Assembly: GCA_028284185.1 (NCBI GenBank)
Contig: JANQSG010000020.1
Span: 124,001 to 188,000 of the forward strand
DNA length: 64,000 nt
Reading direction: 5' to 3'
Source: Kangiella sp.
GTDB taxonomy: Bacteria; Pseudomonadota; Gammaproteobacteria; Enterobacterales; Kangiellaceae
Shown: positions 2,384 through 22,006 of the stretch, piece after piece
How positions within the stretch are numbered: the first letter of the stretch is position 1
Layout of the letters: every line of letters begins with the position of its first letter
Program-made: the position numbers and the translations under genes
The notes under the pieces: generated by a model
The model's database searches: none
What the model was told of the DNA's origin: nothing
What the model saw: only the letters and a program-made list of their open reading frames with translations

Positions 2384-2412
2384 TTGACCCTTTAGCTTTA
2401 TTCAATTACCTT
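2384..2412 (+). promoter_or_regulatory. Probable sigma-70 promoter of the aromatic supraoperon
   Basis: TTGACC at 2384-2389, 17 bp spacer, TACCTT at 2407-2412. The -35 is good and the -10 is weak. Transcription would start about 2418-2420, that is, on or next to the ATG of the first leader peptide. No trp operator-like palindrome was recognised over it. Confidence 0.45.
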
Positions 2413-2418
2413 ACGCTC

Positions 2419-2463
2419 ATGCAAGGATTAAACACAAACAATATTTGGTGGCACGTTACATAG
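2419..2463 (+). CDS. trpL: Trp leader peptide 1 (14 aa, tandem Trp codons)
   Basis: This short ORF encodes MQGLNTNNIWWHVT and a TAG stop. It has 14 residues with Trp at positions 10 and 11, the same length and Trp positions as the E. coli trpL peptide ([14 protein letters not shown]). It precedes a classic set of mutually exclusive pairings. Segment 1 (2430-2443) pairs with segment 2 (2474-2484). Segment 2 (GCGGGCTT, 2467-2474) pairs with segment 3 (AAGCCCGC, 2501-2508). Segments 3 and 4 form the terminator at 2500-2525. A ribosome stalled on the Trp codons (2446-2451) would cover segment 1 and free the antiterminator. There is no Shine-Dalgarno before the ATG, and the likely transcription start coincides with it, so translation may be leaderless, as known for the Sinorhizobium meliloti trp leader. 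Confidence 0.85.
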   Translation: MQGLNTNNIWWHVT

Positions 2464-2499
2464 GTAGCGGGCTTATTGGTGTTTATTTGAAAGTTTTCC

Positions 2500-2525
2500 A
2501 AAGCCCGCAAAATGCGGGCTTTTTT
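2500..2525 (+). terminator. Attenuator 1 terminator hairpin
   Basis: AAAGCCCGCA (2500-2509), AAA loop, TGCGGGCTTT (2513-2522), a 10-bp stem running into a T tract (2520-2525). Its left arm is also the target of an 8-bp perfect antiterminator pairing with 2467-2474, directly after the stop codon of leader peptide 1. This is standard transcription-attenuation architecture. Confidence 0.88.
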
Positions 2526-2560
2526 ATGGCAGTTACAAGTAAAGATTAAAGAGTATATAA

Positions 2561-2653
2561 ATGCAACTAACTTATTTTTTGAATGAAAGTTTCAGCAGCT
2601 ACTGGTGGCATTGGCTTAGGCGGCTTTGGTTCGAGGAAGAGTTATGTAATTGA
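2561..2653 (+). CDS. Second leader peptide (30 aa, rich in Trp, Tyr and Phe)
   Basis: An ATG at 2561, 7 bp after an AAAGAG ribosome-binding site, opens a 30-codon ORF starting MQLTYFLNESFSSYWWHW and ending in TGA at 2651-2653. It has four Trp (codons 15, 16, 18, 23), three Phe (6, 11, 24) and two Tyr (5, 14): nine aromatics in 30 residues. A second terminator hairpin follows 15 bp after the stop. A partial antiterminator is visible within the ORF: AGGCGGCTTT (2618-2627) can pair, with one bulge, with the left arm of that terminator. It therefore looks like a second attenuator that could sense more than tryptophan. This fits the downstream operon, which starts with DAHP synthase and ends with aroA-aroC. 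Confidence 0.78.
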   Translation: MQLTYFLNESFSSYWWHWLRRLWFEEELCN

Positions 2654-2667
2654 CATATAAATCCACT

Positions 2668-2703
2668 AAAGCCCGCTTCATCAAATGATTAAGCGGGTTT
2701 TTT
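2668..2703 (+). terminator. Attenuator 2 terminator hairpin
   Basis: CCCGCTT (2672-2678), 12-nt loop, AAGCGGG (2691-2697), extended by A/T pairs and followed by T tract 2698-2703. It sits between leader peptide 2 and the aroF ribosome-binding site, where it must be read through to express the operon. Confidence 0.85.
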
Positions 2704-2746
2704 ATGTCCAAAAAATAAGCAAGAAATTAAATTTTAAGGAAACAAG

Positions 2747-3796
2747 ATGATTATTATTTTAAAAGCTGATACTAGCGAAGCTGATGCAAAAGAGATATTG
2801 GCACAAATTGAACAATCCGGTTTGCAGCCACTGCATATGCCTGGAGTGGAAAGAACGGTGCTGGGGGCGCTGGGTGATGAGCGTGTATTGCAATCACTGC
2901 ATTTGGAAAATCACCCGCAAGTAGAAGCGATAAAGCCAGTATTAAGCAAGTATAAATTAGTGAGCCGGGAAATCTATCCTCAAGATACTGTTATTCAGCT
3001 TGGCAAGACTCCAGTGGGTTCTCAGCAGTTTACCATTATGGGCGGACCTTGTGCTATTGAAAGTGAAGAGCAGTTACTGGAAACTGCGCAGCAGGTAAAA
3101 GCGGCTGGAGCTACAGTATTGCGTGGCGGTGCTTTTAAACCAAGAACCAGCCCATATTCATTTCAGGGATTAGGCGTTGCAGGCTTAAAAATTATGCAGC
3201 AAGTTGGCCAGGAAACGAGACTGGATACCATAACTGAGTTGATGGATATCAAAGATCTGGATGATGTTGCGCGTTATACCTCAGCGATACAAGTTGGTGC
3301 CCGCAATATGCAGAATTATTCTTTGTTAAAGGCAGTTGGTGAAACACAAAAACCGATTTTGTTAAAGCGAGGATTATCTGCCACCATCGAAGAGTTACTG
3401 TTAGCTGCTGAATACATAGTAGCTACTGGTAACCCTAATGTTATGATTTGTGAAAGAGGTATTCGCACTTTTGAAACAGCCACTCGCAATACTTTGGACT
3501 TGAATGCGGTTGCTTATATCAAAGAAAAAAGCCACTTGCCGGTGATTGTCGATCCATCACATGGTACTGGTGTACGAACTTTAGTCGGCCCAATGGCGAA
3601 AGCGGGTGTGGCTTGTGGTGCCGACGGTTTGATTATTGAGTGTCATCGCAATCCTCGCGAGTCGGTTTCGGATGCTGCCCAGGCATTGTCGCCAACTGAT
3701 TTTTCCGAGCTTGTGCAACAGCTTAGACCTTTTATCGAAGCCAGTGGACGCACATTCATTCCACTACCGGATGCAGACCAGCTTGGTGCAAGCTGA
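2747..3796 (+). CDS. aroF: 3-deoxy-7-phosphoheptulonate (DAHP) synthase, type I-beta
   Basis: 349 residues. It condenses phosphoenolpyruvate and erythrose 4-phosphate, the first step of the shikimate pathway. The N-terminal roughly 90 residues ([10 protein letters not shown]...[10 protein letters not shown]) form the ferredoxin-like regulatory domain of I-beta enzymes such as that of Thermotoga maritima. The barrel follows with [10 protein letters not shown] near 98-107, [14 protein letters not shown] near 128-141, and [10 protein letters not shown] near 265-274. Feedback control by Tyr/Phe through the N-terminal domain is known for this type but not shown for this protein. SD AAGGA (2736-2740) precedes the ATG. 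As first gene of a trp-aro operon behind two attenuators, it couples carbon entry to aromatic demand. Its stop overlaps the trpE start (TGATG). Confidence 0.9.
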
Positions 3797-5352
3797 TGTA
3801 CGTTAATACTTTAACTAAAAAGTTGCCTTTAAGTTTAACGCCTTTTGAGGCTTATAATCGTTTATGCGTGGCAGGCAATAAAGCACATAGTGCCTTATTG
3901 GAAACTGCTGAGGTGGGTACTCATAATCATCAAAAAAGTGTGATTATGGTTTCAGCAGCGGTAAAAATTTATGCCACAAATCATCATGTAATATTGGAGG
4001 CGTTAAATGAAAATGGCACTTCATTTTTGCAAAACTTCGATAACAGTGATTTAAAGCAATTTGTAATTGAACAAGATGAACAGCAAATACAACTAACTCT
4101 TAAGAATAGTCCACCAAATATCGATGAAGAGAAAAGGTTAACCGAATCTTCAGTGCTCGATATATTAAAGGAAATCATCAAACAAACCCACTCTGCTAAT
4201 ATCGAAAACAACCAATCCTCCTGCTTGATCGGCGCCTTTAGTTTTGATTTGGTTGATCAGTTTGAACAATTACCAGCGGTTGACAAGCAGGATGAAGATT
4301 ATTGCTTTTATTTAGCTGATCAACTGCTGATTCAATCTATTGATAGTCAATCAGCAATCATTGTAGTGAAAGGTTTTGCGGATAATGGCAATAATACCAT
4401 TCGTTTAGGGTTGAATATTGATACGATAGAAAAGAATTTAAACAATCCAGTTAAGCACAGGGTAGCTAAAACAATAGCTAATAATATTGCTCTTGATCTT
4501 TCTGATGAAGTTTTTGCAGAAAAGGTAAATGCCATTAAGCAAAACATTATTGATGGTGATGCTTTTCAAGTGGTTTTATCGCGTACCTATCAGGTCGATT
4601 GCGCAGACGCACTAACCAGTTATGACGTTTTAAGGCAAACCAATCCAAGTCCTTATATGTATTTTATAAACTTTGGCGATAAGCAGTTATTAGGTGCCAG
4701 TCCCGAGAGTGCGTTGAAAGTAAACAGGCAAAAAGAAGTTTTGTTATACCCAATTGCTGGAACCCGCAAAAGAGCTGTTTCTGAGGCAGGAATTGATTAT
4801 GAAAAGGACTCTAAAACGGAATTCGAATTAATACAAGATCAAAAAGAAACCGCAGAACATATGATGTTGGTAGATTTAGCTAGGAATGATTTGGCAAGAA
4901 TTGTTCAGGCTGGCAGCCGGCGAGTTACTCAGCTTAAACAACTAGTTAGATATTCTCATGTAATGCATTTGGTTTCCGAAGTTCGTGGGTTGCTAAAACC
5001 TGCTATCGACTGCCTGGATGCCTATCGAGCTTGTGCCAATATGGGAACTTTGAGTGGTGCGCCTAAGATAAAAGCAATGCAAATTATTCGCCAGCAGGAA
5101 CAAAAAGCTCGTGGCTTTTACGGTGGTGCGGTAGCTATTATCAATGCTAACCAGGAGTTTGACAGTGCTATTATTATTCGTTCCGCAGTCGTTAAGGATA
5201 ATAAGGCTTTTATCAGTGCCGGTGCTGGAATTGTTTACGACTCTAATGAGAAAAATGAAACCCAGGAAACCTATAATAAAGCCAGGGTAGTAATTGATGC
5301 CTGTTTACAGGCCAATAAGCAATTATTGGTAAAGCAGGAGGCTGTCATATGA
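3796..5352 (+). CDS. trpE: Anthranilate synthase component I
   Basis: 518 residues, full length for the enterobacterial/Vibrio-type TrpE. It converts chorismate plus ammonia (supplied by TrpG) to anthranilate. The N-terminal region contains ALLETAEVGT near 34-43, equivalent to the LLES motif that binds feedback-inhibiting Trp. The chorismate-binding half has FQVVLSRTYQV, SPSPYMYF-like NPSPYMYFINF, LLYPIAGTRKR, MLVDLARNDLARI and GAPKIKAMQII. The start overlaps the aroF stop and the end overlaps trpG by 4 bp (ATGA), which suggests translational coupling and stoichiometric production with TrpG. TrpE, TrpG and TrpD are separate genes here, not the TrpGD fusion of E. coli. Confidence 0.96.
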   Translation: MYVNTLTKKLPLSLTPFEAYNRLCVAGNKAHSALLETAEVGTHNHQKSVIMVSAAVKIYATNHHVILEALNENGTSFLQNFDNSDLKQFVIEQDEQQIQLTLKNSPPNIDEEKRLTESSVLDILKEIIKQTHSANIENNQSSCLIGAFSFDLVDQFEQLPAVDKQDEDYCFYLADQLLIQSIDSQSAIIVVKGFADNGNNTIRLGLNIDTIEKNLNNPVKHRVAKTIANNIALDLSDEVFAEKVNAIKQNIIDGDAFQVVLSRTYQVDCADALTSYDVLRQTNPSPYMYFINFGDKQLLGASPESALKVNRQKEVLLYPIAGTRKRAVSEAGIDYEKDSKTEFELIQDQKETAEHMMLVDLARNDLARIVQAGSRRVTQLKQLVRYSHVMHLVSEVRGLLKPAIDCLDAYRACANMGTLSGAPKIKAMQIIRQQEQKARGFYGGAVAIINANQEFDSAIIIRSAVVKDNKAFISAGAGIVYDSNEKNETQETYNKARVVIDACLQANKQLLVKQEAVI

Positions 5353-5960
5353 AGATTCTTATTATCGATAATTATGATTCATTTATTTATAACTTAAGTT
5401 ATGAATTTGAGCTTGCAGGACACCAGGTCAGCATTTGTAGAAATGATGTGGATTATTTAAAACTACAGCAGCTGATACCATTAAACGATGCCATTATATT
5501 ATCACCAGGCCCGGGAGCTCCAGGTTCTGCGGGACACTGTTTGCAGCTGATAAGAGATTACTATCAGACTAAGCCCATACTCGGTATTTGTTTAGGCCAT
5601 CAAGCTATTGTTGAAGCCTTTGATGGTGGCGTTTCTCACGCCAAGTCTGTTATGCATGGCAAAACTTCGCAGGTTTTTACCGACAGTTCACCATTGTTTT
5701 TAGAGCTGGATGAACAGCAAATGGTAGCCAGGTATCATTCATTAGCGGCATCATCTGTACCTAAAAATCTTAGTGTTATTGCTAAAACCAGTGATGGAGA
5801 AGCGATGGCAGTAGAGCATAAAAAATATCCAGTATTTGGGATTCAATTTCATCCAGAAAGTATTATGAGTAAATACGGACAACGTATTATCGGTAATTTT
5901 ATTAAAATTGTTCAAACCGGCGATTCAGGTGATGGAGGTCAAGATGTTGCAGCTGCTTGA
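5349..5960 (+). CDS. trpG: Anthranilate synthase component II (glutamine amidotransferase)
   Basis: 203 residues, class I glutamine amidotransferase. It shows NYDSFIYNL near 8-16, LSPGPGAPGSAGHC near 51-64, the nucleophile elbow GICLGHQAI near 77-85 (catalytic Cys), and the His-Glu pair in FGIQFHPESIMS near 166-177. It supplies ammonia to TrpE. The start overlaps trpE by ATGA. The C-terminus carries a short tail (GDSGDGGQDVAAA) beyond the usual end. That tail is read through the trpD ribosome-binding site and start, so trpG and trpD overlap by 17 bp. Confidence 0.95.
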   Translation: MKILIIDNYDSFIYNLSYEFELAGHQVSICRNDVDYLKLQQLIPLNDAIILSPGPGAPGSAGHCLQLIRDYYQTKPILGICLGHQAIVEAFDGGVSHAKSVMHGKTSQVFTDSSPLFLELDEQQMVARYHSLAASSVPKNLSVIAKTSDGEAMAVEHKKYPVFGIQFHPESIMSKYGQRIIGNFIKIVQTGDSGDGGQDVAAA

Positions 5961-6951
5961 AAATATCTATCAGGGAAAAAGCTTGAACTTGCAGCAGGCT
6001 TTGGCTTCTTTTAACGAAGTGTTAACCGGTAAAGTGGAATTACCTGTTGTGGCAGCTATGTTGGCAGCTTTAAAAACAAAAGGTGAATCTATTGAAGAGA
6101 TTGCTGGAGCGGCTCAAGCTTTAAGAGAACAAGCATTGCCATTTCCAAAAGCGGATTACTCTATGACGGATTGTTGTGGTACCGGCGGCGATGGTTTGAA
6201 TACGATTAATGTTTCAACTTTATCAGCTCTGGTTGCTGCAAGCCTGGGTATTAAAATGGTTAAACATGGTAACCGTTCGGTTTCATCAAACTGTGGCTCA
6301 TCTGACTTGATGGAGGCCTTGGGCATTAATACCCATTTATCACCAAAACAAAGCAAACGGTTATTGGATAACACCAACTTTTGTTTTTTGTTTGCCCCGG
6401 ATTATCATCATGGTGTTAAGCATGTGATGCCGGTAAGACAGTCACTTAAAACCAGAACCATTTTCAATTTAATCGGACCTCTGGCAAATCCGGCCAATCC
6501 TGATACTCAGCTGCTTGGAGTTTATGACGTAAAATATTGTGAACCTTTTGCGCAGATTTTAAAAATACTGGGTACAAAAAAAGCCTTAATTGTCAATGGT
6601 TCAGGTTTGGATGAGGTAGCGGTACATGCTTCCACCGATGCGGTTTTGCTTGACGGTGATGAAATTAAAAATTTGAAGCTTGAGCCGGATGATTTAGGAA
6701 TACAACAACATGATATTCAATCCATACAGGTAACAACTGTTGATGATAATTTACAAGCCGGTATTGCGGTATTAAAAGGACAAGCTTCCGAAGCGCATAT
6801 CGATATGGTGGCGGTTAATACAGGAGCGGTATTATTTTTGAACGATAAAGCCGATACTTTAAAGTCTGCTGTACAAATAGCCAAGCAGCATATTGTATCC
6901 GGTAAAGCATTTGACTATATGCAGCACATTAAGGAACATTCTAATGGATAA
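5944..6951 (+). CDS. trpD: Anthranilate phosphoribosyltransferase
   Basis: 335 residues. It transfers phosphoribose from PRPP to anthranilate. Visible are the PRPP-binding CCGTGGDGLNTINVST near 76-91, KHGNRSVSSNCGSSDLMEALG near 104-124, and KTRTIFNLIGPLANPA near 163-178, all family hallmarks. I chose ATG 5944 because it sits 5 bp after GGAGG (5934-5938) and gives the normal length. A longer in-frame TTG at 5908 would be inside trpG with no SD. It overlaps trpG upstream and trpCF downstream (8 bp). Confidence 0.95.
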   Translation: MLQLLENIYQGKSLNLQQALASFNEVLTGKVELPVVAAMLAALKTKGESIEEIAGAAQALREQALPFPKADYSMTDCCGTGGDGLNTINVSTLSALVAASLGIKMVKHGNRSVSSNCGSSDLMEALGINTHLSPKQSKRLLDNTNFCFLFAPDYHHGVKHVMPVRQSLKTRTIFNLIGPLANPANPDTQLLGVYDVKYCEPFAQILKILGTKKALIVNGSGLDEVAVHASTDAVLLDGDEIKNLKLEPDDLGIQQHDIQSIQVTTVDDNLQAGIAVLKGQASEAHIDMVAVNTGAVLFLNDKADTLKSAVQIAKQHIVSGKAFDYMQHIKEHSNG

Positions 6952-8329
6952 TATACTGCAAATGATTGTTGAGCATAAAAGGCAATTAGTAACTAATAGC
7001 CGTGATATAACTAGACTTGAACCAACTAATAAAAGTTTTAAAGAAGCCTTAGTAAAGCCTCAATTTGGTTTTATTATGGAGTGTAAAAAAGCATCACCTT
7101 CGAAAGGTTTGATTCGGCCAGAATTTGATTTGGCTGAGATTTTGCCGGTTTATAATCAATATGCGGATGCTATCTCTGTGTTAACTGAAGAACGATTTTT
7201 TAAAGGCAGTTATTCCAATTTACGTTATGTCAGTGAAAACACTGATAAGCCTGTGCTTTGTAAGGATTTTATTTTAGAGCCTAAACAAGTTCGCCAAGCT
7301 CGGTATTATGGTGCAGATGCGATTTTATTAATGCTTTCGGTGCTCAATGATTTTGAGTATCAGGCCTGCTTAGAGCAAGCCAACAAACTTAATATGGATG
7401 TGTTGACAGAGGTGCATAATAAAGTTGAGCTACAACGCGCAATTGATTTGGGTAGTGAAATTATTGGTATCAATAATCGAAATTTAAAAAATTTAAGCAC
7501 ATCATTGGATAATACCAAGCAATTAGCCAGTAAGGTGCCCGCTGACCGCGTGATCATAACCGAGTCCGGTATCTATAGCCATGATGATGTTCTGGATTTA
7601 GCACCCTATGCTGATGCCTGTTTGGTTGGTTCTTCACTGATGGGCAGTGTGGATTTGAAGTTGGCAGCGCAACAGCTGGTGTATGGTGATATCAAAATCT
7701 GTGGCTTGACCAGACAAGCTGATTTGGAGTTGGTTGAACAACAGCCCAGTTCGAGCCTGGGGGTGATTTTTGCGGAAAAATCCAAACGTAAAGTGACTGC
7801 TGAAAAGGGTTGTGTATTAACAGCAGATAAAAAATTAATAGGGGTTTTTCAAAATCAGGATATAGAGTTTATTGCTGCCAGGGTTTCAGAATATCAATTA
7901 ACGGGTATCCAGCTACATGGCGATGAAACGCAGGAATTTATTGATCAGCTACGAGCAAAACTGGGTGATAGGATTTTTATTTCCAAAGTCATTCATGTTA
8001 ATGGCAGCTTACCAGAGTTTGACTATCAAAATGTTGATGAAATTTTGCTGGACAGTCAAATTGGTTCGCAGCAGGGCGGTACCGGTGAAGCTTTTGATTG
8101 GCAGCTGCTATCAGAGCCTCAGATAAAGCTGCAACAGACAGAACTGAAAAAGAAAAAGCTACGTATTGCTGGTGGGGTGACCGCCGATAATATCCAGCGT
8201 TTAAAACAATTAGGTTTTAGTCGGTTAGATTTATGTTCCGGCACTGAGCAGTCAGCAGGAGTCAAATCTCCAGAAAAACTTCAACAGATTTTTGATAACG
8301 CCAAAATATTAGCGCGTTATTCTAAATAG
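6944..8329 (+). CDS. trpCF: Bifunctional indole-3-glycerol-phosphate synthase / phosphoribosylanthranilate isomerase
   Basis: 461 residues, a TrpC-TrpF fusion as in most enterics and marine gammaproteobacteria. The IGPS half (about 1-255) shows [15 protein letters not shown] near 39-53, [10 protein letters not shown] near 106-115, and [15 protein letters not shown] and [12 protein letters not shown]. The PRAI half begins at about 258 with IKICGLTR and continues with [23 protein letters not shown] and [10 protein letters not shown]. It performs two consecutive steps, isomerisation of PRA to CdRP and ring closure to indoleglycerol phosphate. ATG 6944 overlaps the trpD stop and is preceded by AAGGAAC. 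A start at 6893 would lie within trpD and is not supported. Confidence 0.95.
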
Positions 8330-8339
8330 AGGTTCATTT

Positions 8340-9557
8340 ATGAATACTACTAATCAGTCACAACCAATATTTGATTATGACGGTGCTTATATTGGTCAAT
8401 ATGGTGGTCAATTTGTGCCACAAATCTTGATGCCTGCTTTGCAGCAGTTGGGGCAAGCATTTGAAGATTCTTTGCAAGACAAAGATTTTCAAGAAGAACT
8501 CAGTCAATTATTAAACCAATATGCAGGTCGCCCAACACCTCTTACAGAATGCACTAGCTTTGGAGTAAACAATAAGGTTCGTATTTTTCTCAAACGTGAA
8601 GATTTGTTGCATGGTGGTGCGCATAAAACCAATCAGGTTTTGGCTCAGGCATTATTGGCGAAGCGTATGGGAAAAAATCGGATTATTGCTGAAACCGGTG
8701 CTGGTCAGCATGGAGTGGCAACGGCACTGGCCTGTGCGCTATTGGGTTTGGATGCCACTATTTATATGGGCAAAAAAGATATTGATAGACAGGCGCCCAA
8801 TGTTTTTCGTATGCAATTAATGGGAGCTAAAGTTGTTCCGGTAGATAATGGTAGTGGTAGTCTCAAGGATGCTATTAATGAAGCTTTGCGCGACTGGGCG
8901 GCCAGCTACGACACGACTCATTATTTGCTAGGAACTGCTGCCGGACCACATCCTTTTCCAAAAATGGTTAAGGCTTATCAAAAAATCATTGGTGAAGAGG
9001 TCAAACAGCAAATTCAGCAAATGATAGGGAAATTGCCCGATGCGGTGGTCGCTTGTGTTGGTGGCGGTTCCAATGCCATTGGAATTTTTGCCGACTTTAT
9101 TAAAGAACCTTCGGTGCAGTTAATAGGTGTTGAACCTGCTGGTCATGGCTTGGATAGTGATGCGCATGGTGCAACTTTACTTAAAGGCAGTGAAGGAATT
9201 ATTCATGGAGCGCGCACTCAAACCCTGCAAACCGAAGAAGGGCAGATTGTAGAATCTCACTCAGTGTCGGCAGGTCTTGATTATCCAGCGGTAGGCCCTG
9301 AGCATGTTCATTTAATGAAAACGGGGCGAGCACAATACGTGGGTATTACCGATCAGGAAGCGCTTGAGGCTTTTCAGGAATTATCACGCTGTGAAGGAAT
9401 TATTCCAGCGTTAGAGTCTTCGCATGCGCTGGCTTATGCAAAAAAACTGGCACAGGAAGCACAGCAACCGATGAATATTATCGTTAATTTGTCAGGACGA
9501 GGCGATAAAGATTTGTCTCATGTTATGGCTATTATTCAAAATAAGGCAGTGAACTGA
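8340..9557 (+). CDS. trpB: Tryptophan synthase beta subunit
   Basis: 405 residues, PLP-dependent. It condenses indole with serine. Recognised motifs are [12 protein letters not shown] near 17-28, GRPTPLTEC near 64-72, [13 protein letters not shown] near 88-100 (the Lys that binds PLP), [10 protein letters not shown] near 120-129, and the phosphate-binding [11 protein letters not shown] near 240-250. It forms the alpha2beta2 complex with TrpA, whose gene overlaps the stop (TGATG). It is a TrpB1-type subunit, as expected beside trpA. Confidence 0.97.
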
Positions 9558-10369
9558 TGCGCTATCAAAATCTTTTTACCAAGAAGCAGGCTGATAAAGA
9601 ACTGGCTTATATTCCTTTTGTGGTTATTGGCGATCCAACTGCTGAATTGTCGCTACACATTATTGATGTTCTGGTGGACAATGGGGCGGATGCCTTAGAG
9701 TTAGGCTTTGCTTTTTCCGATCCGGTTGCCGATGGGCCTGTTATTCAACAAGCCAGTTTGCGCCCTCTAGCTAATCAATTCTCGGTAAAGCAGGGCTTTG
9801 AACTGATACGACAGGTTAGAGATAAATATCCGCAACTTCCCATGGGCTTATTAACTTATGCCAATTTGGTCTTTGCACAGGGGATTGATAATTTTTATCA
9901 TCAGGCACAAGTTTGTGGTTTAGATTCAGTATTGATTGCTGACTGTCCGGTACAGGAAGGCAAATTGTTTACTGAATCTGCGATTCAGTACAATATCCAA
10001 AGCGTGTTTATTGCTCCCCCTGATGCTGATGATGAAACCCTACAACTGATTGCTGAAAACACTCAGGGTTATACTTATGTGCTCAGTCGTAAAGGTATTA
10101 CTGGTACGGAGGTAGCGGCCAGTCAGGCTAACAGTGATTTTTTACAAAAGTTACGCGCTTTTGGTAGTGCTCCTTTAGTGCAGGGCTTTGGGATATCCGA
10201 GCCTGAGCATGCCTATCAGGCAGCTGCGGCAGGGGTTGACGGAATTATTACCGGTTCAGCCATAGTGAAGTTGATCAATCAGCATTATAATAAGCCAGAT
10301 CTTATGCTTGAGCAGGTGGGCCAGTATGCAAAAACTATGGCACAAGCGGCACACCAGGCTCATGACTAA
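9557..10369 (+). CDS. trpA: Tryptophan synthase alpha subunit
   Basis: 270 residues. It cleaves indoleglycerol phosphate to indole and glyceraldehyde 3-phosphate. The barrel shows ALELGFAFSDPVADGPVIQ near 46-64, whose Glu and Asp match the catalytic Glu49/Asp60 of E. coli, then VLIADCPVQEG, and the SRKGITGTEVA loop and GFGISEPEHA near the C-terminal half. It is translationally coupled to trpB. It ends the trp genes proper, but the operon appears to continue: the next ORF starts 27 bp downstream with no terminator between. Confidence 0.96.
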   Translation: MRYQNLFTKKQADKELAYIPFVVIGDPTAELSLHIIDVLVDNGADALELGFAFSDPVADGPVIQQASLRPLANQFSVKQGFELIRQVRDKYPQLPMGLLTYANLVFAQGIDNFYHQAQVCGLDSVLIADCPVQEGKLFTESAIQYNIQSVFIAPPDADDETLQLIAENTQGYTYVLSRKGITGTEVAASQANSDFLQKLRAFGSAPLVQGFGISEPEHAYQAAAAGVDGIITGSAIVKLINQHYNKPDLMLEQVGQYAKTMAQAAHQAHD

Positions 10370-10396
10370 TACTTAAAACCAAGAAGGGCCTGGATA

Positions 10397-10642
10397 ATGG
10401 CTATAGCTGAGAAAATAAAGTCGCAACTGCTGGATATGGAACAGCAGGTTGATGAAGAAAAATTATTTTTGGTGGGTTATTTAATTCCAATGGTGGATTT
10501 GATCCCACAAGATGAGTTAAGCGATGTTGAATGGTTTGCAGAGTTCGCACTGTTTGTTGAAGAGGCGGTCGATGCTGACGGTTTAAATGATCGAGATGTT
10601 GAGCAGTTAAGTGATATTTTTGAACAGCTGCAACCTGAATAA
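10397..10642 (+). CDS. Small acidic YfcL-like protein
   Basis: 81 residues, strongly acidic, mostly helical, no Cys and no membrane segment. The pattern EKLFLVGYLIPMVDLI near 20-35 and a C-terminal LNDRDVEQLSDIFEQL resemble the E. coli YfcL family (DELFASGYL... and LSPRDQALVTDMWENL). In E. coli yfcL lies close to aroC, and here the gene sits two genes before aroC. That makes the assignment more likely, though it rests on remembered family patterns. The function of YfcL is unknown. SD GAAGGG lies about 10 bp before the ATG. It is embedded between trpA and aroA, so it is probably co-transcribed with them. Confidence 0.6.
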   Translation: MAIAEKIKSQLLDMEQQVDEEKLFLVGYLIPMVDLIPQDELSDVEWFAEFALFVEEAVDADGLNDRDVEQLSDIFEQLQPE

Positions 10643-10659
10643 AGTAACTAGGATATATT

Positions 10660-11940
10660 TTGCCTGATAGACGTATTGTTTCCAGTAATATCAATGCACC
10701 GACTATAACAGTGCCAGGTAGTAAATATCTGGCCAATCGTTATGTGGCGATTGCTGCATTAGTTGATGGAGCAAGTGAACTAACTAATGTGCCATTAAAT
10801 GATGATATTGTTGCTGCCTTAAATGCCATTAAAGCACTGGGTGCTGTAGTCAAAATTGAAGATAACTGCGTGCAGATTCAGGGTATAAATGAATTTGCAC
10901 GTCCAGATCTGATTGAAATTAATTGTAAAGACAGTGGAACCCTTAGCCGTTTCGTGACAGCTTTGGCTGCGAATTTACATTCAACAGTAAGGATTGATGC
11001 CAGCGAACAAATGCGACAAAGGCCCATGCAGGAAATTGTTGATTGTTTATCGGATTTAGGGGTTTCAGTTGAATCAGAAAAAGGCTTTTTACCGTTAACT
11101 GTAAAAGGTCCCATTGCAGGTGGTGAATGTAAATTGGATGCGTCTCGCTCCAGCCAATTTTTAAGCGCCTTGTTGATAGCCTGTTTGAAAGCAAAAGAAC
11201 AAACGCTGATTCAGTTAACAACAGATCCTGTGTCAGAAAGTTATATTGAACTAACCTTGAATGCTATAAAACGTTTTTCAGGTTCAGTTCAACGTATCAG
11301 TAGTCGTGAATTTTTAATTGATGCGGATCAGGAGTTAAAAGCTGCGCAAATTCATGTAGCCAGTGATGTGGTTAGTTGTAGTTATTTTATGGCTGCAGCT
11401 TTGATCGGCGAAACTTCGATTTGCATTAAGCATTATGACTTTGACTCAGTGCAAGGCGAGTCTCAGTTTTTTGAAGTGCTTGAGGAAATGGGGGCACAGG
11501 TCGAGCGTGATAAAGATGACCTATTGGTGACTTATCAAAAGCCACTAAAAGGTATAGAGGTGGATATGGGTAATATGCCTGACGCGGTACCTACCTTAAC
11601 TGCAATAGCTGCTTTTGCTAAAGGAACGACTCATATCACTAATATTGCTCACTTAGCCTTTAAAGAGTCGAATCGAATTGTGGATTTGTGTGAGCAGTTA
11701 AAAAAAATTGGTGTGTCATGTGAATATGGTGCTGATTACATTACTATTGCTGGCGGAGCTGCTTTGCAGGCAACAGAGGTTTCAAGTTGTCATGATCATC
11801 GTCTGGCGATGTCACTGGCGTTGTTGGGAATTAAAGTTCCAGGATTGATTATTCAGGATGCGCAAGCGGTAGAAAAATCCTTTCCACAGTATTGGCAATA
11901 CCTGGAGCAGATTGGTATCGTGACAGAAGAAATTAATTAA
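10660..11940 (+). CDS. aroA: 5-enolpyruvylshikimate-3-phosphate synthase, divergent
   Basis: 426 residues. It adds enolpyruvate from PEP to shikimate 3-phosphate. The TTG start at 10660 follows AGGA by 7 bp; no ATG fits upstream. Most catalytic positions are kept: Lys in PGSK, the Arg of NR, SGT with the following Arg, [12 protein letters not shown], the Asp in [22 protein letters not shown] and the final EKSFPQY Lys. Unusual are PGSKYLANR, where the family has PGSKS-x-x-NR (the Ser that binds shikimate phosphate is replaced by Tyr), and KDSGTLSRF in place of the usual N-A/S-G-T-x-x-R-P (Pro replaced by Phe). It is adjacent to aroC, the next enzyme. I think it is active but with an altered PEP/S3P site. 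Confidence 0.87.
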
Positions 11941-12019
11941 AAACCCTCATCGAAATAAGATAGAGAGCTTTCAGTTTAACTATGTGGAGAGCCCTCCGCG
12001 AAAACAAGGTAAAAAGTAC

Positions 12020-13114
12020 ATGGCTGGCGATAGTTTTGGAAAATTATTTAAAGTAACCAACTGGGGCGAATCTCACGGCAAGGCTATTGGTGCTGTGGTG
12101 GAAGGTTGTCCGGCAGGATTAGAGCTTTCTGAACAAGATATTCAACCTTTTCTGGATAGACGTCGTCCTGGACAAAGCTCCATTACTACACGCCGTGATG
12201 AAAAAGACCAGGTTAAAATTTTATCAGGAACAGTGGATGGAATTACCACCGGAACGCCAATCAGTTTAGTGATTGAAAACCAGGATCAAAAGTCCAAAGA
12301 CTATTCTGAAATGGCGAAAATATTTCGTCCGAGCCATGCCGATTTTACCTATCAAAAAAAATATGGGATCCGTGATGTAGCCGGTGGCGGTCGCAGTTCT
12401 GCCCGTATTACCGCAGGTCATGTTGCCGCTGGTGCTATTGCACAGAAAATTTTGCAAAAATCATTAGGCACTGAAATGGTTGGTTATGTTAAAAGTGTTA
12501 ATGATTTAGTGTTAGCTATAGATTCAGCAGATATTGATGCTAGTTTGATTGAGCAAACCCCAGTGCGTTGTCCGGATTTGGTTTTAGCTGAAAAAATGAT
12601 TAAACGAATTGAAATGGCTCGTAAAAATGGTGATTCATTAGGCGGCGTTGTTGAATGTCGAATTAATTCGGTGCCAGTAGGTTTGGGTGAACCTGTGTTT
12701 GATAAATTAGAGGCAGATCTAGCCAAAGCCATGTTATCCATTAATGCCAGCAAAGGCTTTGAAATTGGTTCTGGCTTTGCCGGAACACTGGAAACAGGTT
12801 CCAGCCATAATGATGTTTTTATTAATGAGCATGGTAAAGTTAAAACCAAAACCAATAATTCTGGCGGCGTTTTAGGCGGTATTTCTAATGGTATGCCTAT
12901 TGTCTTTAGAGTCGCATTCAAACCAACGCCTACTTTAATTAAAACTCAACAAACGGTAACTATCGAAGGCCAGGAAACCGAGTTTCATGGACGAGGGCGA
13001 CATGATCCCTGTGTGTTACCAAGAGCGGTTCCAATTGTAGAAGCCATGGCAGCTTTGGTATTGTGTGATCATTTTTTAAGGTTTAGGGTTTATAAGGGTT
13101 TGTTTGATTTATAG
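12020..13114 (+). CDS. aroC: Chorismate synthase
   Basis: 364 residues, normal length. It converts EPSP to chorismate with reduced FMN. The N-terminus reads [19 protein letters not shown], with the signature GESHG, then [18 protein letters not shown], the FMN/EPSP-binding [15 protein letters not shown] near 117-131, and the C-terminal [22 protein letters not shown] chose ATG 12020 because it gives this canonical start. A GTG 36 bp upstream lacks homology. It is the last gene of the aromatic supraoperon. No simple terminator follows; instead a large inverted-repeat element occupies the next 600 bp. Confidence 0.96.
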
Positions 13115-13737
13115 TGTCATTCCTGTGGACGACTACCAAGGAAGGTGGGAGTTAGAATAATGCAGGAGCAGTTATCGGCAGGAATCTTCTTAGAGTTAGT
13201 ATTTCGCTTTTTCAGCGAGTTACTTAATGTATTGTTCATTTCTTTGTCCGCACAAAGAAACGAACCAAAGAAAAGCGCCCCAGATATTTAGGCCTTTCTG
13301 TGAAAGGCTACCCTCAAAAAGATAAATCACTTAACGCACCACAAACTACGGCACATCCTTATGCCGAAGTTTGTTATTTCAATCATCCAGATTGAAATTG
13401 TTATGCTTTATCTTTCTTCGGCTAAATATGAAGGGGGTTGTCAAAACTGAAACTTTAGGAGCTAAAGTATAAAGCATTTTCCCCTTATATTTAGCTGAAT
13501 AAAAGCAAAGTATTAGCAATCGACAACAGGACGTTGTCGATAGTGAAATTCGACACACGGATGTGGCGTATTTCACGGTGCGTTAAGGTACTTTGATTTT
13601 ATGAAGGTAGTTTTCGTAGAAAACCTAAATATTCGGGAAAGCTTCTTTTGGTTACTTTTCCAAGCTAGGAAAAGTAACTCGCTGAGAAGCGAAAAACAAT
13701 TTTTTTAGAAGATTCACGTTTTCACGGAAATGACGGA
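13115..13737 (+). repeat. Composite inverted-arm hairpin element, copy A (non-coding)
   Basis: This gene-free 620-bp stretch lies between convergent aroC and the DUF2069 gene. The outer edges carry TCATTCC.../...GGAAATGAC type repeats. Inside are two arms in inverted orientation. Left-arm hairpins: GTTCATTTCTTTG pairing 13234-13246 with 13253-13265; 13341-13374 (ACAAACT, CGGCA, loop CATCCTTA); 13376-13398 (ATTTCAATC, loop ATCCA). Right-arm hairpins: 13519-13541 (ATCGACAAC, loop AGGAC); 13543-13576 (GTGAAAT, CGACACA, loop CGGA); 13651-13678 (GTTACTTTTCC, loop AAGCTA). The arms share ATATTTAGG, CTTAACGCACC and AGCTAAATAT (in inverted form). Short ORFs across it are not protein genes. It is the partner of copy B at 21331-22006. 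Confidence 0.85.
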
Positions 13738-21330: not shown

Positions 21331-22006
21331 GCTTCATTAGCGGATGGTTTCGCTTTTTCAGCGAGTTACTTTTCCAGACTTGGAAAAGTAACCAAAAGAA
21401 GTTTTCCCTAATATTTAGGTTTTCTTCGAAAACTACCTTTATAAAAGTAAAGTATCTTAACGCACCATGAAATACAGCACTTCCCTGTGCTGGATTTCAC
21501 TATTGCCATCCATCCAAGATGGCAATTGCTAATACTTATCTTTTATTCAGCTAAATATAAGGGGAATTCATGTACAGAATTATCCGTATTATCGTGGGGA
21601 TTTTAATGTTGTATGATGATTTACTAATCTAGATTAGGCTATCAGTCAACTTAAATTCATTGCTTGAAAGTTTAAAATCTTATATTGGCTCTTAAATTCC
21701 CCTTAGAGCTAGCCGCAGTGATAAAAACTAATAGCGTAAATTGGGCAGGGATACCCAATTTAGCAAAGGCGAAACATGGATGTTTCGTTTTGCGGCGCGT
21801 TAAATTAGTTTATATCGCAAGGGTAATGCGTAGCATCTAGCGACAGGGGCGCTTTTCTTTGGTTCATTTCTTTGCGCGGGCAAAGAAATGAACAAGAAAT
21901 TAATCAATAATTCGCTGAGGGCAAGGGGCGAAAAACTTGGTAAATGTTCTATCTTGATTCCCACTTTCGCGGGAATGACATCGAAAAAAGTGTGAATGAA
22001 ATAAAT
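21331..22006 (+). repeat. Composite inverted-arm hairpin element, copy B (non-coding)
   Basis: This 676-bp gene-free region lies between convergent perM and phoH, with the same architecture as copy A but reversed. Left-arm hairpins: 21365-21392 (GTTACTTTTCC, loop AGACTT); 21468-21499 (TGAAAT, CAGCAC, loop TTCCCT); 21503-21525 (TTGCCATC, loop CATCCAA). Right-arm hairpins: 21738-21761 (AAATTGGG, loop CAGGGATA); 21770-21787 (CGAAACAT, GG, ATGTTTCG) with an outer GCAAA/TTTGC; 21862-21893 (GTTCATTTCTTTG, loop CGCGGG). The end is a GATTCCC...GGGAATGAC repeat (21953-21980). The left arm is nearly identical to the right arm of copy A (reverse complement), except that both inner stems have changed with compensating bases. 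Confidence 0.85.

Follow-up and report, generated by a model that had tools for sequence, protein, structure and literature searches.

Two predicted Trp attenuators in series before an aroF-first aromatic amino-acid operon of Kangiella and related Gammaproteobacteria

A long aromatic amino-acid operon of Kangiella sp. is preceded by what are most likely two complete Trp attenuators on one transcript. The trp attenuator is a textbook case of regulation by one leader peptide and one switch. Here, in a stretch of 64,000 nucleotides (the window: contig JANQSG010000020.1, positions 124,001 to 188,000), one such unit follows another between a predicted promoter and aroF. The anatomy of the units and their comparison among genomes make it very probable that they are two classical, ribosome-mediated Trp attenuators acting in series. 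The conservation of such a doubled trp leader-peptide attenuator over several families appears to be new here; tandem trp leader-peptide attenuators were not found among the best literature matches, and an earlier description in subscription papers is possible. The features, numbered from the first base of the window, are as follows.

2384-2412 (+): predicted promoter, with a -35 box TTGACC at 2384-2389, a spacer of 17 nt and a -10 box TACCTT at 2407-2412.
2419-2463 (+): leader peptide 1, MQGLNTNNIWWHVT (14 aa, then stop), Trp codons at 2446-2451; predicted to be leaderless.
2450-2473 (+): 1:2 (pause/protector) hairpin 1, from folding; 2450-2452 and 2454-2459 paired with 2464-2469 and 2471-2473.
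2467-2508 (+): antiterminator 1 (2:3), GCGGGCTT at 2467-2474 complementary to AAGCCCGC at 2501-2508.
2500-2525 (+): terminator 1 (3:4), AAAGCCCGCA/TGCGGGCTTT and a T-run.
2561-2653 (+): leader peptide 2, MQLTYFLNESFSSYWWHWLRRLWFEEELCN (30 aa, with YWWHW), Trp codons at 2603-2608 and 2612-2614, before segment 2.
2618-2678 (+): antiterminator 2 (2:3), 2618-2630 with 2665-2678; not placed in the sequence-only reading.
2668-2703 (+): terminator 2 (3:4), stem 2668-2701, T-run 2698-2703.
2747-3796 (+): aroF (DAHP synthase with an N-terminal ferredoxin-like domain; Pfam PF00793 and PF18152), first gene of the predicted operon.
3796-13114 (+): rest of the predicted operon, from open reading frames and Pfam: trpE, trpG, trpD, a trpC/F fusion, trpB, trpA, an 81-aa ORF, aroA and aroC.

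The Pfam order along the operon is DAHP synthase, TrpE, TrpG, TrpD, the TrpC/F fusion, a PLP enzyme in the TrpB position, TrpA, EPSP synthase and chorismate synthase. Judging from gene order and spacing, aroF to aroC would be co-transcribed. The 81-aa ORF (10397-10642, +), which lies between trpA and aroA, is acidic and matches no Pfam family. Directly 5' of the trp promoter lies a gene (1623-2333, +) that we take, from its GKTT motif, to encode a ParA-like ATPase, and the tail of a similar gene precedes the trp promoter in several members of the genus. The window also holds two TwoAYGGAY RNAs (Rfam RF01731, cut-off 43), one at 13479-13622 (+; 59.3 bits), shortly 3' of aroC at the operon end, and the other at 21416-21572 (-; 44.1 bits). 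A T-box RNA was matched by Rfam neither in the window at gathering scores nor within 2300-2800 at E <=5.

Attenuator 1 has all parts of the classical switch. Its terminator folds at -15.5 kcal/mol (z -3.5), its antiterminator at -16.4 kcal/mol (z -2.7) and the unit as a whole with a z of -2.7. The leader carries WW or WWW followed by H in 20/20 members of the genus. The 1:2 stem also recurs, with a two-sided change from C-G to U-A in one of them (L008), and in all 20 segment 2 is paired upstream, in the same stem, with P >0.5. Attenuator 2 has a leader, an antiterminator and a terminator of its own. Its leader, with WW or WWW in 20/20 genus members, ends 14 nt before terminator 2 and has a further Trp codon (2627-2629) inside segment 2. 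Terminator 2 folds at -17.8 kcal/mol (z -5.5; 0/200 shuffles as good) and antiterminator 2 at -19.9 kcal/mol (z -3.1); folded whole, unit 2 is less remarkable than unit 1 (z -1.8; 9/200 shuffles as good). The distances from the Trp codons to the stop codon and to segment 2 fit the stalling model. Direct reading reproduced every coordinate given in the sequence-only reading for the leaders, antiterminator 1 and both terminators. The idea that attenuator 2 has no protector hairpin and is open by default was dropped: its segment 2 is predicted to be paired upstream in 18/20 genus members, but the stems differ, and no single conserved 1:2 structure emerges. By their anatomy both units would work like an attenuator of the E. 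coli type, yet they fall outside the Rfam Trp_leader family (RF00513) by its cut-off of 41 bits, with 37.1 bits over unit 1 and 15.7 bits over unit 2; among the 40 attenuators of the genus, two pass it (one each in L003 and L006).

Chance and over-reading can be ruled out from shuffles, the reverse strand and conservation. The detector calls a unit where a short ORF has two Trp residues within five and its last Trp lies 20-160 nt 5' of an intrinsic terminator. It found two units in each of the 20 genus upstream regions and none on their reverse strands (0/20). Among 1000 dinucleotide shuffles of these regions, 999 had no unit, one had one and none had two. The second leader and its hairpin, whose loss from all close relatives would have spoken against the reading, are retained throughout the genus.

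Covariation of both hairpins had been proposed as a check. Tabulated over 41 genomes, changes in segments 2, 3 and 4 accompany one another; in attenuator 1, for example, a single position is G-C-G in 31/41 and A-T-A in 6/41, changed on all three strands. The 3:4 partners from the same genome pair better than permuted ones in both units (0/2000 permutations as good), and so do the 2:3 partners (18/2000 as good for attenuator 1, 0/2000 for attenuator 2); these tests lean in favor of pairing, as segment 2 had been chosen to match its own segment 3 best, a paired terminator stem is among the detector's requirements and the statistics ignore kinship. The arms of the two attenuators share GCGGGC/GCCCGC, and coupling of the units through segment 4 of attenuator 1 and segment 3 of attenuator 2 was considered and rejected: 368/451 cells were paired against a permuted mean of 367.1 (868/2000 as good). 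Since pairing between the arms of the two units is unlinked, they look like separate modules.

The pair extends well beyond the genus. In a sample of 149 genomes of the order, 53 have an aroF orthologue (best match <=1.5e-96). Three whose aroF lies at a contig end (G031, G039, G051) and one whose aroF does not adjoin trpE (G061) were set aside, leaving 49 operons, of which 48 adjoin trpE by coordinates; in the remaining one (G029) trpE is on another contig. The detector finds two units in 41 of these 49 readable aroF-first operons, spread over several families. Three more (G020, G022, G042) have a degenerate second unit, that is, a second terminator or stem with a single-Trp leader or an imperfect stem. 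Four have one unit only (G025, G035, G038, G068), and G029 has a terminator without an intact Trp leader. In the aroF upstream region of G029 (L131) a stop precedes TTGGTGG in a leader-like ORF and aroF itself reads broken, which may reflect decay or an assembly error. In one two-unit region (L025, genome G095) both leader peptides share WRWWW, and local duplication or conversion between the units could account for it. In two genomes of one genus with a single attenuator (L122, L123), the stretch from the terminator to aroF holds repeats of the ATGGACTG/ATGGCGG type, which by eye resemble AYGGAY motifs.

That a trp operon of the E. coli type has a single attenuator is in line with what the trpE-first regions of this sample show. 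Among 83 trpE hits that do not adjoin aroF, 79 were read (G062, G083, G130 and G144 being left out, and one piece, L186, being only 113 nt long). Exactly one unit is found in 62 of the 79 and none in 15. The other two have one real unit and one apparently spurious: the second hits (L166, L171) are short hydrophobic ORFs that resemble each other, their two genomes being of the same genus, and were judged false positives by eye. Single attenuators also precede relatives of aroF in Photobacterium, Salinivibrio, Enterovibrio and Veronia, genera of the Vibrionaceae (one in each of nine records, covering the aroF upstream only). Among class-level aroF relatives, 29 upstream regions were read of 54 other matching genomes; none has two units and five have one W-leader hit. 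In a tree of aroF, two-unit rows are spread over the entire group and one-unit rows are interspersed, so placed that five changes between two and one are needed. The tree was made by a quick method and leaves out G029, its branches are long and 21 of its 58 forks are open; because it is weak, one ancient gain followed by losses and several separate gains are indistinguishable.

The second unit might be a decaying copy, or a plain back-up terminator that regulates nothing. Besides the eight operons in which it is degenerate (3/49) or missing (5 more), its greater variability points that way, and so does a duplex test in which the antiterminator was matched by more than 5 of 100 shuffles in 11/40 genomes for attenuator 2 (93/100 in L119) and in 2/40 for attenuator 1. 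Three of 43 were skipped in this test, and within the genus only one region (L001) failed for attenuator 2, where the last-Trp rule had mis-set the region to be paired; there a direct fold and the pairing test (-11.7) replace the -3.7 from the mis-set region. However, adjacent Trp codons and a terminator are kept in 41/49 operons over several families though the sequence between them diverges, and we regard decay or mere back-up as very unlikely. A second working attenuator remains the preferred reading of unit 2.

If leader 2 had its own promoter, each attenuator would gate a separate transcript, and the logic would be additive rather than serial. The distance from terminator 1 to the leader 2 ATG reaches 72 nt within the genus, and a promoter may be weak or belong to another type, both of which speak for this arrangement. 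However, when the stretch from leader 1 to the WW codons of leader 2 was scanned, three of the 20 genus members had promoter-like sites scoring at least 9/12; these lie at unrelated places (one being promoter 1 itself), and no sigma-70-like site is conserved; nor does a promoter end 4-9 nt 5' of the leader 2 ATG in any of 41 operons. In two genus members (L003, L005) the gap is just 18-20 nt. As there is no conserved internal site and the gap can be so short, one transcript is most likely, and separate transcripts have little probability. The proposal of two attenuators in series before one aromatic operon is supported: they are conserved in the genus and in several families, each pairs separately, and no conserved promoter lies between them.

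The sequence-only reading had further proposed a gate with two inputs. Taken as two different signals, this would have attenuator 1 reading Trp and attenuator 2 the general supply of aromatic amino acids (Phe, Tyr, Trp). In favor are the two Tyr and two Phe codons that precede WWHW in leader 2 of the window, and the role of the operon in making chorismate as well, from which all three aromatics derive. Against it, those codons are not conserved: the other 19 genus members have at most two Phe/Tyr codons in leader 2, and all have WW or WWW. We consider two different signals highly improbable. What both leaders have kept is Trp, and the pair is better described as testing for Trp twice in series. 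An AND relation on read-through would still follow from the anatomy.

The two units differ in where promoters lie relative to the leader ATG. The predicted transcription start, at about 2419, coincides with the A of the leader 1 ATG, and with the -10 box so close, transcription should start at or next to that A. The pattern TTGAC[C/G], 17 nt, TANNNT, 6-7 nt, ATG was found by script in 19/20 genus members and by eye in the twentieth (L017). Over the 44 aroF-first operons used for this test (the 41 with two units and the three with a degenerate second unit), a promoter ends 4-9 nt 5' of the leader 1 ATG in 34, the distance from the -10 box being 6-8 nt, or in 35 with L017 read by eye. The same geometry is seen in 0/41 leaders 2, in 1/64 leaders of trpE-first operons and in 0/9 of the named Vibrionaceae. 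Ribosome-site matches of at least 4 bases are found before 5/44 leaders 1, 12/41 leaders 2 and 20/64 trpE-first leaders. A consensus scanner called neither terminator (0 found) nor the leader 1 promoter, which scores 8/12 against its cut-off of 9. Leader 1 is probably leaderless, in view of this promoter-to-ATG geometry.

A leaderless leader raises another reading, in which attenuator 1 is mainly a source of a short leaderless RNA and a peptide that act elsewhere, like rnTrpL/peTrpL of Sinorhizobium meliloti, and attenuator 2 controls the operon. The predicted leaderless leader of 14 aa, together with the failure to find TrpR, resembles S. meliloti as portrayed in the available text of PMC7298713, and attenuator 1 is the more conserved within the genus (mean column identity 70% vs 59%). 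However, all three switch structures are present in attenuator 1, and they show compensated changes; a unit that served just to supply an RNA would have no need of this, and we give the reading a small chance. Serial control by both attenuators remains the preferred account.

TrpR (PF01371) exceeds its cut-off in 37/149 genomes of the order sample, in 0/40 genomes of the family and in 0/41 tandem genomes, with one weak match below the cut-off in G014 and with two of the genomes called (G002, G003) being less than 90% complete. One genome with a single-unit aroF-first operon (G068) has it. On the long aroF-first operon, the role of TrpR may be taken by the doubled attenuator. However, TrpR is also absent from 40/64 trpE-first genomes with one attenuator, so its absence does not predict the pair, and on the same count TrpR loss is a weak candidate for the cause of the pair.

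From the anatomy and the comparisons we infer a scheme comprising the transcription start, leaderless translation, ribosome stalling and multiplication. Transcription would begin at the leader 1 ATG or no more than a base or two from it, and the 5' AUG would be where a ribosome loads. With charged tRNA-Trp the ribosome would reach the leader 1 stop and mask segment 2, and terminator 1 would form, releasing an RNA of about 107 nt. With uncharged tRNA-Trp it would stall at the WW of leader 1, 2:3 would pair and polymerase would continue. A second ribosome would then load on leader 2, and the test would be repeated at WWHW with that unit's own 2:3 and 3:4 stems, the terminated RNA being about 285 nt. 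As only transcripts passing both terminators would reach aroF-trp-aroA-aroC, read-through would be about p1 x p2, which would widen the range and steepen the response to one signal. The purpose of such an arrangement, the least certain part of the scheme, could be to strengthen control, in cells that lack TrpR, over a long operon whose first gene encodes the pathway's entry enzyme.

A more elaborate version would make the leader a two-stage checkpoint with two ribosome-loading routes, the first leaderless (70S-type, on a 5' AUG) and the second initiated internally, so that the operon opens only when the ribosomes of both routes lack charged tRNA-Trp. We offer this tentatively and think it unlikely. 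If true, the checkpoint would report the translation-initiation state as well as the charge of tRNA-Trp and would replace TrpR, and it would represent an ancient equivalent, built on the ribosome, of the tandem Trp T-boxes that Bacillota have.

Several known systems share parts of the design. Like the E. coli-type trp attenuator (RF00513), each unit has a leader with Trp codons, a segment 2 that follows the stop codon or overlaps the ORF, a 2:3 antiterminator and a 3:4 GCCCGC terminator. Unlike it, there are two units in series, leader 1 is predicted to be leaderless, TrpR was not found and aroF comes first. Tandem Trp T-boxes likewise place two sensors of tRNA-Trp charge in series before trp genes. 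The available text of PMC12452182 reports them from Bacillota only, names Trp synthesis as the pathway that contiguous riboswitches regulate most significantly and expects a pseudo-cooperative response of tandem switches with one ligand. However, T-boxes bind tRNA directly, as that text has it, whereas the sensor here would be a translating ribosome, in Gammaproteobacteria. The mgtCBR leader of Salmonella also has two short ORFs in one leader, each an attenuator. The available text of PMC3641672 describes it as a singular case of tandem attenuators whose signals differ (ATP and proline), each being effective by itself, and sets it apart from metE, which has two intrinsic terminators. In contrast, the leader described here would respond to a single signal, and polymerase would have to pass both of its two intrinsic terminators. 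The trpL of S. meliloti is a known leaderless Trp leader; as given in the available text of PMC7298713, its RNA also begins at the ATG of a 14-aa Trp leader and the operon is not under transcriptional repression, but there a single attenuator precedes trpE(G), in Alphaproteobacteria. The rimP leader of several Gammaproteobacteria also has two tandem terminators and a potential antiterminator, but no amino-acid leader peptide is described for it in the available text of PMC2965389.

Found over several families, in genomes where TrpR was not detected, and with a first unit that is probably leaderless, the doubled attenuator would provide a natural test of the range and steepness of serial attenuation. 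The parallel with the tandem Trp T-boxes of Bacillota spans two phyla, in which two unrelated sensors of tRNA-Trp charge would be doubled before one and the same operon.
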